Shown here: one piece after another, positions 4,318-58,738 of the stretch
How the letters are laid out: the number at the start of each line of letters is the position of its first letter
How positions within the stretch are numbered: position 1 is the first letter of the stretch
Source of the DNA: Thalassotalea agarivorans
Lineage (GTDB): Bacteria; Pseudomonadota; Gammaproteobacteria; Enterobacterales; Alteromonadaceae
NCBI RefSeq assembly: GCF_030295955.1
Contig: NZ_AP027363.1
Span: forward strand, 1,798,001 to 1,862,000
Direction: 5' to 3'
DNA length: 64,000 bases
Position numbers and translations under genes: made by a program
The notes under the pieces: generated by a model
Told to the model about the DNA's origin: nothing
Seen by the model: only the letters and a program-made list of their open reading frames with translations
The model's database searches: none

Positions 4318-4361
4318 GCTAGGATAAATGGCGTCAGGGAAATACCTGCTATTTATCACTT

Positions 4362-4437
4362 AACCATCCCTACGTCGGCATTATCCGAATCAGGTAATAA
4401 GGGTTTTATCTCAGCATCTACGATGCACCCCTTGGTT
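4362..4437 (-). ncRNA. TPP riboswitch aptamer (THI element)
   Basis: On the minus strand the conserved THI-box blocks occur in order: GGGGTGC, CTGAGA, ACCCTT, ACCTGAT, GATAATGCCGACGTAGGGA. The terminal helix P1 is AACCA (4433-4437) with TGGTT (4362-4366). It precedes the thiamine TonB receptor operon, the usual location for a TPP-sensing leader that lowers expression when thiamine pyrophosphate is high. Confidence 0.95.
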
Positions 4438-4705
4438 TTGCACGCATATTACCAAGCAAGCGGCGAATGTACAGTATAACCTAATAAAATAATTAACTAA
4501 GCCATAACTCTTCTTTGCCAAAAGGCATATTTACGTCGTCTTCTATCGGCTCTCCTTACCGAACTTTTTGCTTTGTTTTTGAGGCTTTCTTTGCTTTAGC
4601 GTGTTTTTTTAGGAATTTGTCTTGTTTTTGAAGAATTACGTTAGTTTTTAACACCACATTGCGCTACATTAGCGCAAAATAAAAGAGACAAAATCTGCAA
4701 CAAAT

Positions 4706-35206: not shown

Positions 35207-36004
35207 TTACTGAGGTGCTGGTATCGCGCCAAGGGAAATTAATGCTTCTTTGGCTAACTGTTTTCTTAACGCTAAATGCTGGCGCTGTTTAAGCGCTAAG
35301 TTAAGCGCAAACACCCAAGTACCATTTTCACTTTCAACATACCCCACATACCAGCCAACCGGCGCTTCACCTTGTGGTGCCCACCCTGTTTTACCATACA
35401 GCTTATATGTTGCTGTTTGTTCGGCAAGCATGATGGTTTTAAACAAGGCAAAATGTTTCTGCTCAAACGGTAATGTTTTCCCCTGTAGTTTTTTTAGAAA
35501 GTTTACCTGCGCTTCTGCGCTTAACTTTAACGTACCGTCTAACCAAAAATTTTCAACATCAAAGGCATCAGGCAATGTGCCGTAGTCCATTGATTTGATA
35601 TAAGCTTTGTAGCGCTCAGCGCCAACTTGCTGAGCGATTTGCTGATAACACCACACACAAGACACTTGAAATGCTGAGGCTAACGTTTGATCTTTATTCC
35701 AACTTTTCAGCCAATAATCGGTGCCATTCCACTTAAATCTAGTTTCTGCATTGGTTGCCACCCCTGCTTGCAGCGCAATCAAGGTATTGGGAATTTTAAA
35801 GGTAGAAGCTACAGTAAACGGCTGTTTAGCTCTCGCAGGGTTGTAAACATACCTTTTTTTTGATTCTAGATGCTCAACAACCATGGAGCCCGCAACTGGC
35901 GATTTGGCAAACACTTCTGCAAGCTTTTCATCCTCTGCAAAGGAAGTGTGCGCGATAATAACAAACAAGAAAATAATGCGACTTATGTAATTTTTTCTTC
36001 TCAT
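35207..36004 (-). CDS. Class D (OXA-type) beta-lactamase
   Basis: 265 aa, secreted (MRRKNYISRIIFLFVIIAHTSFA signal; cleavage near residue 23). Class D motifs: STFK (S67-K70, catalytic Ser and carbamylated Lys), SCV (115-117), FWL with W154, and KTG (205-207). The usual YGN reads YGT (141-143), a departure. Likely hydrolyses penicillin-type beta-lactams in the periplasm. It is convergent with trpA and 1-2 kb from a mobile patch, but it has no insertion sequence or attC directly at its ends, so it may be a resident gene. Confidence 0.93.
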   Translation of the reverse strand: MRRKNYISRIIFLFVIIAHTSFAEDEKLAEVFAKSPVAGSMVVEHLESKKRYVYNPARAKQPFTVASTFKIPNTLIALQAGVATNAETRFKWNGTDYWLKSWNKDQTLASAFQVSCVWCYQQIAQQVGAERYKAYIKSMDYGTLPDAFDVENFWLDGTLKLSAEAQVNFLKKLQGKTLPFEQKHFALFKTIMLAEQTATYKLYGKTGWAPQGEAPVGWYVGYVESENGTWVFALNLALKQRQHLALRKQLAKEALISLGAIPAPQ

Positions 36005-37530: not shown

Positions 37531-38677
37531 TATTTAGCGATGAATTTAACGTGTTTAGGCTTATTTTAGCTATAACAATGCCTTAGCTCAGGCTAATGGT
37601 GTTTTTATGAAGGTATTTTGTTGCTTCGCTAGCCAAAGATTTGTTGGCTACTGGTTAAGTTTTGTCGTCGCCTTTGCTGAAGTTCACTAAACTGCTCTAT
37701 TGATGCTTGTTGACCAACTGCGCCTTTGAATTGTTTTTCAAACTCTGTGGTTAGGCGAAGCCAGCTTTCTGGGGATATGTTTAACCTGTTAATGATAGTC
37801 GGCAAGGTGTTTTCTATATGACCTGCTTTGTCATCGCGAATTACTCTACCTGTTAAATCAACGAGCTGTATGTACTCATCTAGTTTAAACGGTAAACCAT
37901 TTGGCATATCTTTTCTGGGATCACCTACAAAAGGCATAAGTGCTTTAGGTTGCTCTCCTTTAATCGCGGCTTTAACACGAAGCCTTATACTGGTGTGCAT
38001 TGATTGTTCGGGAGTTTTAGCGATACCGGCTCTAACGGGATTTAAATCAACATAGGCCATACAAGCAGCAAGTGCTGCTTCATCAAGTAATGCCTGGCTG
38101 GTAAAGCGACCTTCCCAAAATCTTCCTGTGCAGTTATCTTCTGCATTGGCTTGTCTTGCTATAGGTTCGTTTAACAGACGCATAAACCAGCTAATATCGA
38201 ACAGGCGTTGTCTATAGATTTCTATAGTGGATGTTAGCGTTGGTATTAGGCTTTGATGAATATCATCGCCTTTAGCAAATTGCTGGGTAAGCAAGGTACC
38301 TTTACATACCTTGTGCCAGCGATTGATAACCTCACTATCGGTTAAACTTTTTACTTTGTCATGGTTTATATGCAATACCACATGCACATGATTGCTCATT
38401 ACCGCATAGGCACAAATATCAATACAAAAGACATTAGCTAGAAACAGCAAACGCTGCTCTATCCAGCCCCGTCTGTGCTCATAGCAGGTATTAGTTACTT
38501 TATCTTTACCACATAAGAATGCGCGTCTAACGCAACGGCTTACACAATGGTAATACGGGGTGGCTTGCAAACAGATTTGTTTGCTTCTTGGTGTCGGCAT
38601 CATTCCCTCCTTGGAATTTACTTGCTCAACTTAAGCCTAGATTAGCTTTTTGATTTGTCCAGTTACAGTGGGTGGCT
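37425..38677 (-). mobile_element. Y1-transposase element (REP-associated/IS200-like), approximate limits
   Basis: Limits are set by GAAATTGAGCCACCCATCG at the left and the inverted, degenerate TGGGTGGCTTAGTTATTT at the right, enclosing one transposase gene. No target-site duplication is expected for HUH single-strand transposition. The exact ends cannot be fixed from one copy. Confidence 0.6.
37629..38600 (-). CDS. Y1/HUH transposase, REP-associated (RAYT-like)
   Basis: 323 aa. The start at 38600 has an AGGAGG Shine-Dalgarno at 5 nt; the adjacent ATG at 38603 is too close. Motifs: YYHCVSRCVRRAFLCG at the N-terminus, the HUH site NHVHVVLHI (about 70-78) and YVDLNPVRAGI (about 183-193). Such enzymes nick and join single-stranded DNA at hairpins formed by REP-like ends, here the GAGCCACCCA motif on either side. 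This copy has no visible frameshift. Its 3' part is duplicated in a truncated form just to the left. Confidence 0.9.
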   Translation of the reverse strand: MPTPRSKQICLQATPYYHCVSRCVRRAFLCGKDKVTNTCYEHRRGWIEQRLLFLANVFCIDICAYAVMSNHVHVVLHINHDKVKSLTDSEVINRWHKVCKGTLLTQQFAKGDDIHQSLIPTLTSTIEIYRQRLFDISWFMRLLNEPIARQANAEDNCTGRFWEGRFTSQALLDEAALAACMAYVDLNPVRAGIAKTPEQSMHTSIRLRVKAAIKGEQPKALMPFVGDPRKDMPNGLPFKLDEYIQLVDLTGRVIRDDKAGHIENTLPTIINRLNISPESWLRLTTEFEKQFKGAVGQQASIEQFSELQQRRRQNLTSSQQIFG

Positions 38678-38715
38678 TAGTTATTTTCCCTATGTGACTG
38701 GGCCAAATGTACAGA

Positions 38716-38967
38716 TTATTTTAATGATTCTTGCCAAACAGTTTCAAACTCTTGTTTGGTAATTGTATTGGAATCTGACAAATCTAGTTCTTTGATATGC
38801 CCATCATAAAGTCCAGGGCCAACATCATCATGGTATTCCTCTCGAGATGAAAACCATTTATTTCCATATTTCTCAACTTGACGGACTGCATAGCCGTTTT
38901 CATCAAATTCTGTCCAAATAGTGCCAATCCCTAGAAGGGACTCTGAGGGGCCTTTCCAATATTCCAC
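38716..38967 (-). CDS. Cassette-borne small protein, unknown function
   Basis: 83 aa starting at GTG with an AGGAGA Shine-Dalgarno 6 nt upstream. Acidic, soluble, with a YxDGHIKELDLSDSN segment; no family recognised. It begins 17 bp after an attC-like site, so it looks like the coding part of an integron gene cassette. Its downstream attC is not seen; the transposon end lies about 40 bp away and may have replaced it. Confidence 0.6.
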   Translation of the reverse strand: MEYWKGPSESLLGIGTIWTEFDENGYAVRQVEKYGNKWFSSREEYHDDVGPGLYDGHIKELDLSDSNTITKQEFETVWQESLK

Positions 38968-38983
38968 AAATCTCTCCTAGAGG

Positions 38984-39085
38984 CATAACGCTTCACTAAT
39001 AAGTAAAACAGTAAGTTGGCCATTTTGTTGCGTCGTTTGCAAGAAATTGGACAACACTGTTTATCTTTTTAAGTGACTTGTTATG
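38984..39085 (-). other. attC-like integron recombination site 1
   Basis: On the minus strand the site runs from ATAACAAGTCACTTAAAAAG to CTTATTAGTGAAGCGTTATG. The ends are complementary with the spacing typical of R''-L'' and L'-R' boxes, and the inner arms (AAACAGT...GTTG / CAAC...ACTGTTT) continue the fold. It lies between two small genes of the same orientation, and the 3' GCGTTATG is the usual cassette junction. Confidence 0.75.
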
Positions 39086-39087
39086 TT

Positions 39088-39417
39088 TCATTTTAAACCG
39101 AACCAAAGTCCAATGATCGCAACAAATAAAGAAAGGACAGCTATTCTATTAGGAAACGAGTGATACCACTTTGATTGTTTGGTATGCGACTCCAAATACT
39201 CGACACCAGACAAGGTTATTCTGGGCTCCATAAAGCCAACCCCAGACTTTGAAGATATGTCTATAGCTTGGAGAAAGCCATAGTCAATCAAGTCTTTAAC
39301 ACAATCCAAATCCAATTCAGAGTTTGAATCTAAATGCTCGGGTAAATCTTTTTGTTGAGCTAATTTTAAGATTTTTATCGCATCTTCTTGCTTCAACTCA
39401 GTTTCTCCATGAAACAT
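39088..39417 (-). CDS. Cassette-borne protein with possible winged-helix and C-terminal membrane anchor
   Basis: 109 aa. The ATG is the one in the attC end GCGTTATG, with GAGG of the attC itself serving as Shine-Dalgarno, a common design in integron cassettes. Residues 8-75 have a helix-turn-helix-like pattern ending in a wing (MEPRITLSGVEYLES); residues 88-108 are a transmembrane helix (RIAVLSLFVAIIGLWFGL). Function unknown. It ends 2 bp before attC site 1. Confidence 0.6.
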   Translation of the reverse strand: MFHGETELKQEDAIKILKLAQQKDLPEHLDSNSELDLDCVKDLIDYGFLQAIDISSKSGVGFMEPRITLSGVEYLESHTKQSKWYHSFPNRIAVLSLFVAIIGLWFGLK

Positions 39418-39511
39418 AACGCCTCGTTAAGAGGCAAATAAAGCTTGGCTATAATTTTGAGCGCAGCGACAAAAGCCAAGCTTTATTTGTCGCGCTTTAA
39501 CGACTTGTTAG
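39415..39511 (-). other. attC-like integron recombination site 2
   Basis: On the minus strand: CTAACAAGTCGTTAAAGCG at one end and CTCTTAACGAGGCGTTATG at the other, with complementary TCGTTAA / TTAACGA cores. Between them is a perfect 16-bp inverted repeat (39435-39450 and 39474-39489, CAAATAAAGCTTGGCT / AGCCAAGCTTTATTTG). This is the folded-hairpin structure integron integrases recognise. The stop codon of the upstream cassette gene lies inside it. Confidence 0.85.
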
Positions 39512-39782
39512 TTTGAATTTTACTGTAATCAATAGGCTTTTCTGCTGCAACGATAAAAGCGACAATAAATGCTGGTATAAATTGATAAATCCATTCTGCA
39601 ACATTTTGTGCAAAAAGAAATGCAATTGATGCACTAGATAATGACGTAATAATTACACAAGTTAGAGATTGAAATTTATACGCCCAACCAACATGACTAG
39701 AAGAAACCTCTTTTCTAGATGCAAACCTTATAGCAAGCGCATAAATAATTAAAAAGAAGTATAAAAATACAAATGCACCCAT
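39483..39782 (-). CDS. Cassette-borne small membrane protein, unknown function
   Basis: 99 aa with three hydrophobic segments (about 1-18, 32-50 and 58-78). An AAAGGAAATC sequence is a good Shine-Dalgarno for the ATG at 39782. The last eight codons (NKSLKRDK) are encoded by attC site 2, as often happens in gene cassettes. The CTGTTAG about 20 bp before the start looks like the end of a further attC whose other half I could not identify. Confidence 0.6.
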   Translation of the reverse strand: MGAFVFLYFFLIIYALAIRFASRKEVSSSHVGWAYKFQSLTCVIITSLSSASIAFLFAQNVAEWIYQFIPAFIVAFIVAAEKPIDYSKIQTNKSLKRDK

Positions 39783-40214
39783 GATTTCCTTTTCAAACTA
39801 ACAGCTTATTAGTGGGAATTCCTTATAAGTCCAAACGAATTTGAACCTTATCTTAAAAACTTCCACACTAAATCATTAATTAAAACAGCAAGATAACACC
39901 AAATATTGCGACCAGCAAGATTCTCGGTTTCTGCAGAAAACGAGAATTGGACTTAGCGAGAATTAACTTGGCTCGCTAAGTCCAAAAGCTACTTAGTTAA
40001 CTATCTGTTTTTTAACGTGTAAAAAATATGATTTGGAAAAAACGAGCCAAATTTACGATTTGTATTGCGAGCCAAATAAGTCAAATTAGTCGATATTCCA
40101 TTTATACCTGTATAAACAGCCATGCAATGACAAAATATTTTTTACACAAAAAAGCCTAGCATTTGCTAGGCTTTCAACTCGTAGCTCGAAGCACACAGCC
40201 CGAGGCTTTTTTAA
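39783..40214. other. Gene-free stretch with hairpins at the edge of the cassette region
   Basis: No ORF is supported. It holds a CTGTTAG-type cassette junction (about 39798), two adjacent inverted repeats (39920-39947: ATTCTCG / CGAGAAT around TTTCTGCAGAAA; 39949-39983: GGACTTAGCGAG / CTCGCTAAGTCC), and the terminator of the DUF885 gene at its right end. The two hairpins are 1-2 bp apart. Confidence 0.6.
40147..40174 (-). terminator. Terminator of the DUF885 lipoprotein gene
   Basis: AAAGCCTAGC / GCTAGGCTTT stem with a short loop; on the minus strand it is followed by a TTTTTT run. Confidence 0.85.
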
Positions 40215-58051: not shown

Positions 58052-58239
58052 TGTTTAACTCACTTATCTGACTAGGTTTGTTGTCCTAGATAATCCCCTT
58101 ACTTCGATAAGCAATGATAAATAAGCTATGTGACACTTTAGTTACATTTATGTGTCCGCTTTATTAAATGACAAATACATGAAAGATTTCTTTCGGTTAG
58201 ATGAAGAAATTTTGACGAGCGCACAGAAAAAAGGCACAA

Positions 58240-58266
58240 AAAAAGCAAGCCGAAGCTTGCTTTTAA
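58240..58266. terminator. Terminator of the cold-shock gene
   Basis: AAAAGCAAGC / GCTTGCTTTT stem with a CGAA tetraloop; T-rich on both strands. Confidence 0.9.
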
Positions 58267-58286
58267 AATCAGTAAACGCTGGTCGC

Positions 58287-58496
58287 TTAAAGAACTACGA
58301 TGTTCTCAGCTTGTGGACCTTTAGCGCCTTTAGCAACAGTAAATTCTACTGCTTGGCCTTCAACTAAAGTTTTGAAACCGTCGCCTTGAATTGCACTGAA
58401 GTGAGCAAAAACGTCTTCACCTGATTCTTGTGCAATGAAACCGAAACCTTTTGATTCGTTGAACCACTTAACGGTTCCTTTAACTGTGTTAGACAT
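58287..58496 (-). CDS. CspA-family cold-shock protein
   Basis: 69 aa OB-fold: [15 protein letters not shown] (RNP1) and DVFAHFSAI (RNP2), closing with [10 protein letters not shown]. An RNA chaperone that melts structured mRNA. The upstream 242-bp gap may hold a long cold-responsive 5' leader, although no canonical cold box is identified. Adjacent to a terminator, so monocistronic. Confidence 0.96.
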
Positions 58497-58738
58497 AAAT
58501 CTATCCTATAAAATGTGAATATACCTTTGATAAGGTGGTGTAGCTTAAAAATATTCTCTGAAACTTAGCATCTGCAGGACGGTAATAATGAATAATACAG
58601 CGTAATGAAGGTGTTAATTTAGCTTAATATTCTAGCTGCGGCTAATATACGCCTTATTAAACGCATAGTCTAGCGGATTCAGCGTTTTAGCAACATTAAT
58701 TAGTGATTAAGTGTAACGAGATGTGAGTTGGCGATGAT

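Follow-up and report, generated by a model that had tools for sequence, protein, structure and literature searches.

An integron cassette array without intI, headed by an attI-type site, in Thalassotalea agarivorans and its orphan counterparts in the family

The array and its attI-type site

The 64,000-nucleotide stretch of the Thalassotalea agarivorans chromosome analysed here (the window; C1:1798001-1862000 of a 3.35-Mb single-contig genome) contains a small integron array of two complete cassettes and one truncated cassette, with no integron integrase gene (intI) beside them. Directly 5' of the first cassette, beyond the interval marked by a first-pass annotation made from the letters alone, lies an attI-type site. 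Computed cassette borders, at G/TT (the slash marks the crossover), fall at 39802/39801, 39420/39419 and 38989/38988. The features, with their basis in brackets (ORF, open reading frame; aa, amino acids), are as follows.

39799..39898, minus strand: orphan attI-type site and the region 5' of it (attI alignment, shared core, copies)
39420..39801, minus strand: cassette A, 382 bp, between the crossovers of attI and attC 2 (computed G/TT borders)
39483..39782, minus strand: cassette A gene, 99 aa, small membrane protein, stop codon within attC 2 (ORF)
39415..39511, minus strand: attC site 2, of cassette A, 97 bp (covariance model R1, 72.1 bits; fold z -6.1)
38989..39419, minus strand: cassette B, 431 bp, crossover to crossover (computed G/TT borders)
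39088..39417, minus strand: cassette B gene, 109 aa, N-terminal part soluble, with a membrane helix at the C-terminus
38984..39084, minus strand: attC site 1, of cassette B, 101 bp (R1, 51.5 bits; fold z -5.3)
38716..38988, minus strand: cassette C, truncated (no R1 match 3' of it)
38716-38967, minus strand: cassette C gene, 83 aa, GTG start, weak DUF6881 match (ORF)
~38650-38705: hairpin resembling a repetitive extragenic palindrome (REP), near the transposase
37629..38603, minus strand: REP-associated Y1 transposase (RAYT) at the distal array end (NF047646, E 5.7e-11, below cut-off)

The attI-type site was first noticed when the sequence before a single-attC cassette at 894 kb proved to match the sequence before the first cassette of the window. 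Its core is CTAATAAGCTG followed by TTA. An alignment of the element with attI from the genome's own integron scores 25, against 11.5 +/- 2.1 (maximum 20) for shuffles that preserved dinucleotides, none of 500 reaching the observed score. A search with a 125-bp query found full copies at C1:3164563 (87%) and C1:894099 (79%), and the homology with both stops at the crossover, after GCTG/TTA. In relatives, attI sites whose spacing from intI is almost constant end in CTAATAAACTG, CTAATAAGCTG or CTATTAAACTG, each followed by TTA. The published Shewanella attI reads AAACGCGCATGCGCACTAATAAAATG before TT, with the end CACTAATAAAATG before TT (PMC9892861), and the sole match to this 15-nt end with at most 2 mismatches in the 64 kb is the window element, at 39800. 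Like the attI sites of related integrons to which it is homologous, the element ends in CTAATAARCTG/TTA. Alignment with the genome's own attI, together with a core that matches intI-attached and Shewanella sites, marks the element, on sequence grounds, as an attI-type site; it adjoins no intI, hence the term orphan attI. R2, a sequence-only model built from 17 aligned attI-type sites, gives it 47.4 bits, a score for a member of the training set. As judged by these comparisons, the locus is an integron platform without intI, headed by attI.

The attC sites were assessed with R1, a covariance model trained on seven attC sites only, all from the integron elsewhere in the same chromosome (L006). 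As held-out sequences, site 2 and site 1 were matched at E 1.1e-12 and E 8e-8, respectively, and the single other strong match outside the main array in the whole genome was at C1:894550. Folding of the recombinogenic strands as single-stranded DNA gave -25.0 kcal/mol for site 2 and -21.1 kcal/mol for site 1, values that none of 200 shuffles equalled in either case. Both folds are the canonical bottom-strand attC hairpin with unpaired spacers between the R and L boxes, and both sites have R''-L''/L'-R' boxes and a GTTRRRY-type core. An Rfam search at gathering score left the two sites unmatched, and a pattern search with GGCGTTATG returned many chance matches.

These results agree with much of the first-pass annotation, which had described two attC-like sites between three small same-strand genes and had named an attC covariance model as a check. 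Both sites match such a model (72.1 and 51.5 bits) and fold better than their shuffles, site 2 has the perfect 16-bp inner inverted repeat ascribed to it (CAAATAAAGCTTGGCT / AGCCAAGCTTTATTTG), and the 99-, 109- and 83-aa ORFs end or start in or near the sites. The length of 97 bp stands, and that of 102 bp is corrected to 101 bp. The annotation read the 109-aa protein as a winged helix-turn-helix with a membrane anchor; the winged helix draws weak support from sub-threshold matches to YjcQ and DUF2513, and the predicted structure is a failed model (mean predicted local distance difference test score, pLDDT, 43). Nor is this protein unique; all three genes had been described as looking novel. 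Cassettes of Paraglaciecola sp. MB-3u-78 contain two copies of a 66% homologue. An attC lies immediately after each copy (84.5 and 88.5 bits), and the stretch also contains an attI core.

For the 99-aa protein, no family match was found in Pfam, NCBIfam, PADLOC or PHROGs. The weak DUF6881 match of the 83-aa protein is accompanied by a predicted structure (pLDDT 70) that has no match in the PDB, the best E being 0.65. Six cassette proteins matched no anti-phage family in PADLOC. A consensus promoter scan gave nothing convincing for the window cassettes; the window attI presumably carries a promoter for them.

The integrase and the orphan attI sites

The absence of an integrase, as stated by the first-pass annotation, holds for the window region: tblastn with 31 IntI proteins found none at 34-46 kb, and no intI remnant adjoins the array at E 1e-3 or 0.05. 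The same chromosome, however, encodes an IntI with its own array about 0.6 Mb from the window array, at C1:1213578-1214513 (TIGR02249, 394 bits, over the cut-off). Its frame is open for 312 aa without a stop and looks intact, and the protein has the Phage_integrase and SAM-like N-terminal domains. The array of this integron is divergent from intI and has eight attC sites of the same family as those of the window, and direct reading of the sequence reveals a LexA-type box, CTGTATATATATACAG, upstream of intI. With two attC sites and no neighbouring intI, the window array falls within the working definition of a cluster of attC sites lacking an integrase (CALIN), which is at least two attC and no adjacent intI (PMC9024848); it lacks the intI adjacent to attI of a complete integron. 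The CALIN label given earlier is therefore correct by definition, but an attI-type site heads the array, which is not a bare attC cluster.

Five R2 sites are present in the chromosome, four orphan (the window, 894119, 3164562 and 2961699) and one attached to intI (1213232). The copy at 2961699, which was outside R2 training, is 90% identical to the genome's own attI over 86 bp. After it come a 115-aa gene (DUF6678), a stretch resembling attC and another small gene.

Orphan sites extend across the family. Seven of the orphan-type sites had served to train R2, so a further 40 orphan loci were used for testing. R2 recovers, beside intI, attached attI sites absent from its training in about ten relatives. 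Among 119 family genomes it gave 120 matches, 26 attached to intI and 94 orphan, with orphan sites in 36 of the genomes. The attached sites, divergent from intI, lie 76-282 bp from it (one of them 753 bp), mostly 147-182 bp from the intI match; the orphan sites have no intI so placed. R2 E-values come from a model uncalibrated for AT-rich marine genomes, and the controls were a scan of the class and an attC orientation test. In the first, 227 gammaproteobacterial genomes outside the family yielded a single match. In the second, R1 attC sites around the 40 held-out loci in the same orientation numbered 97 downstream and 6 upstream, and there were none on the opposite strand; the flanks searched measured about 2.5 kb on the upstream and 4.4 kb on the downstream side, an inequality that would explain less than a twofold excess. 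A downstream attC was present at 30 of the 40 loci, within 1.5 kb at 25. Orphan sites are modestly associated with genomes that bear intI (32/88 versus 4/31, p 0.02). Part of the family matches to the window element (L047, L049) was dropped, as unrelated sequence had been matched.

The heads of these loci carry traces of intI. LexA-type boxes, defined as CTGT-N8-ACAG with at most one mismatch, occur between -280 and -150 in 22 of 44 heads (the 40 held-out loci and the four in T. agarivorans) and in 1 of 44 in the control region (p 2e-7), and 21 of the 22 lie at -195 to -211. Short antisense pieces of intI, mostly N-terminal, are present in 8 of the 44. Taken together, the boxes, as remains of the lost intI promoter, and the antisense stubs indicate for many orphan heads an origin in intI-attI modules from which intI has been lost.

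Several other features accompany these sites. Beyond the attC of the orphan array at C1:894k comes a ParD/ParE-like toxin-antitoxin pair (L041:5692-6217), and at C1:943103 another toxin-antitoxin-like pair precedes a weak attC-like match (L028). A module running from TATCGGCAACCCTCAATGGGGA to GGTTATGTTGCACTGCTCG lies upstream of three attI-type copies, at C1:3164.6k, 1620.0k and 2961.7k (L040, L042, L045). In one relative (L085, G077:C1:374000-392000), several closely spaced attI-type repeats of about 220 bp share a REP-like and promoter-like part; a small gene follows most of them, and no attC match was found between them. In another (L164, G105:C6:225000-232000), an orphan attI array is situated 5' of a DUF885 gene with 71% identity to the one in the window. 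The window array lies 3' of its DUF885 gene, and DUF885 is possibly a preferred neighbourhood.

Probable cassette exchange in trans and competing explanations

Several family genomes are drafts, and the argument rests on single-contig genomes such as G000 and G008. G008 has one strong intI match and 11 orphan attI sites. Three of its orphan heads (L126, L127 and L129) do not differ in their final 100 bp and agree at 95-97% over 293 to 399 bp; this shared part extends beyond the expected start of intI (about -222) and holds no full intI. Homology stops at the crossover, after which come unrelated first cassettes. A further pair in G008 (L133/L134) follows the same pattern, and in head pairs of G036, G049, G021 and G084 homology likewise ends at the crossover, the shared head passing -222 in G036 and G049 and stopping near -200 in G021 and G084. 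A shared head without intI predates the difference in cassettes, and recombination at attI therefore occurred without intI in cis. Near-identical intI-less heads with unrelated cassettes thus imply an IntI that would have acted in trans. Independent losses of intI at matching points after cassette insertion are less likely, and for these relatives we regard the sequence evidence for cassette change at an attI without intI in cis as strong.

We therefore favour, with a probability of about 0.72, the interpretation that the window locus is an intI-less platform that descended from intI-attI heads and would still be a docking site served in trans by the IntI of C1:1213578-1214513. According to this model, integron heads comprising intI and attI would most likely have been copied around the chromosome, with later loss of intI. 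IntI would pair the folded single-stranded attC of circular cassettes with double-stranded attI and join them at G/TT, so that cassettes could enter and leave beside an orphan attI. A further point in favour of the model is that a homologue of the cassette B gene occurs in Paraglaciecola cassettes. The window attI would be active at present, and the IntI using it would be the one found here.

Several observations weigh against this interpretation. With the attC of cassette C lost, the array is decaying in part. Neither a LexA box nor an intI stub remains in the window head, and for this locus attI homology has to carry the case for descent from an intI-attI head by itself. The window attI is 75-87% identical to the other orphan attI sites of the chromosome, hence no recent copy, and 10 of the 40 held-out orphan loci have no downstream attC. 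Moreover, no empty or alternative version of the window site was found among the genomes compared, which include one genome for the genus and relatives in which the neighbourhood is unconserved; DUF885 orthologues of relatives, without cassettes and without an mfd neighbour within 1.5 kb, provided no clean empty site by synteny.

The strongest competitor, which we nevertheless consider unlikely, is a dead relic: a deletion would have removed intI from a formerly complete integron here, leaving frozen cassettes and an attI without function. The last cassette without attC, the RAYT element after it and the intI stubs kept in some orphan heads would all fit. However, the window attI and attC sites are still well formed, IntI is still in the genome, and a relic does not explain why near-identical intI-less heads in relatives carry different cassettes from the crossover onwards. 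Somewhat less probable again is a segment of attI and cassettes moved together, by homologous recombination or by an insertion sequence or RAYT, with no later cassette movement. RAYT genes at the distal ends of a number of these arrays and groups of heads in G008 that share up to 398 bp speak for it; yet the shared heads stop at the crossover and their cassettes differ, so these are not fixed units, and the window attI differs from that of the main integron.

The two remaining explanations are very improbable. A dispersed promoter or repeat that merely resembles attI would account for partial copies of about 45 bp and 34 bp at C1:1620027 and C1:2045884, both without cassettes, but its conserved 3' half consists of the attI core found beside intI across the family and in the published Shewanella attI, and attC sites on the same strand follow the orphan matches in a ratio of 97 to 6, with 0 on the opposite strand. 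Off-target insertion of circular cassettes by IntI into a chance genomic target (attG), without attI, is an established process and would suit a single scattered attC elsewhere in the genome, but the upstream 100 bp or so are homologous to attI, are repeated at other cassette loci and lose homology at the crossover, whereas an attG is homologous to neither attI nor attC; a simple CALIN or attG reading was rejected once this homology was found.

A broader proposal, to which we give even odds, is a multi-locus integron in which one integrase would serve several intI-less attI platforms in trans, so that many CALINs would be working docking sites and not debris. Should many CALINs carry an attI of their own and be recombined by an IntI encoded far away, one chromosome would have several simultaneous entry points for cassettes, apart from the main array and perhaps differing in expression, and models of cassette capture and stability would change.

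RAYT elements recur in these arrays. The window transposase has a 95% copy 3' of the orphan attI array at C1:894k, and RAYT/Y1 genes or fragments lie near the distal ends of the window array (37629-38603), of L041 (8070-9044) and of the G008 loci L125, L128, L129, L132, L133, L135 and L165. In G008 about 7 of about 12 RAYT places are within 10 kb 3' of an attI, more than their number in the genome suggests. A RAYT element probably interrupted cassette C, and such elements may insert into cassette arrays or help to disperse them.

About 3 kb beyond the array, outside any cassette, lies a class D beta-lactamase gene (35207-36004; NF012161, 264 bits, cut-off 250; OXA-198/OXA-372-like), a 45% homologue of which is located upstream of an orphan attI in G036 (L137). 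Rfam matches in the window comprise a thiamine pyrophosphate (TPP) riboswitch (4350-4442) and a cspA thermoregulator (58237-58646).

Relation to known systems

In the IntegronFinder 2.0 survey (PMC9024848), CALINs and complete integrons occur at similar frequencies, and CALINs have been proposed to be degraded; they are also said to be mobilisable in trans (PMC12444791). The window array resembles them in its two attC sites, small same-strand genes and lack of an adjoining intI. The definition, however, considers attC and intI only, whereas this array is headed by an attI-type site, and relatives have many such arrays per genome. With sedentary chromosomal integrons the locus shares attI and cassettes with homogeneous attC sites, of the family found in the genome's own integron, but it has no intI.

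Cassettes away from the main array are known from other marine bacteria. In Alteromonas, of the same order, chromosomes have two extra attC regions away from intI that are expressed and less variable than the intI-linked region (PMC4119200); no attI was reported there, unlike in the window array. Most Shewanella strains have CALINs and scattered single attC sites (PMC9229058). Insertion into attG, established by Loot et al. 2024 as cited in PMC11023631, and delta-attI cassettes, in which attI or part of it replaces attC (PMC12901181), likewise involve insertion away from the main attI or an unusual placement of att sites. In contrast with attG sites, which are not attI homologues, the flank of the window array is homologous to attI, and unlike delta-attI cassettes, both complete window cassettes carry attC and the attI heads the array.

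The closest precedent is a Shewanella prophage CALIN, which is also integrase-less, starts with an attI of the same motif type and has a matching integron in the genome. We found no report of multiple dispersed intI-less attI sites per genome across a family in the literature covered, most subscription papers lying outside that coverage. The prophage CALIN is a single case, whereas here many species have several chromosomal copies per genome, and sequence comparison provides evidence that attI sites without intI have undergone recombination. Thus, one CALIN headed by attI was already known; the scale of the phenomenon and the evidence for action in trans appear to be new.
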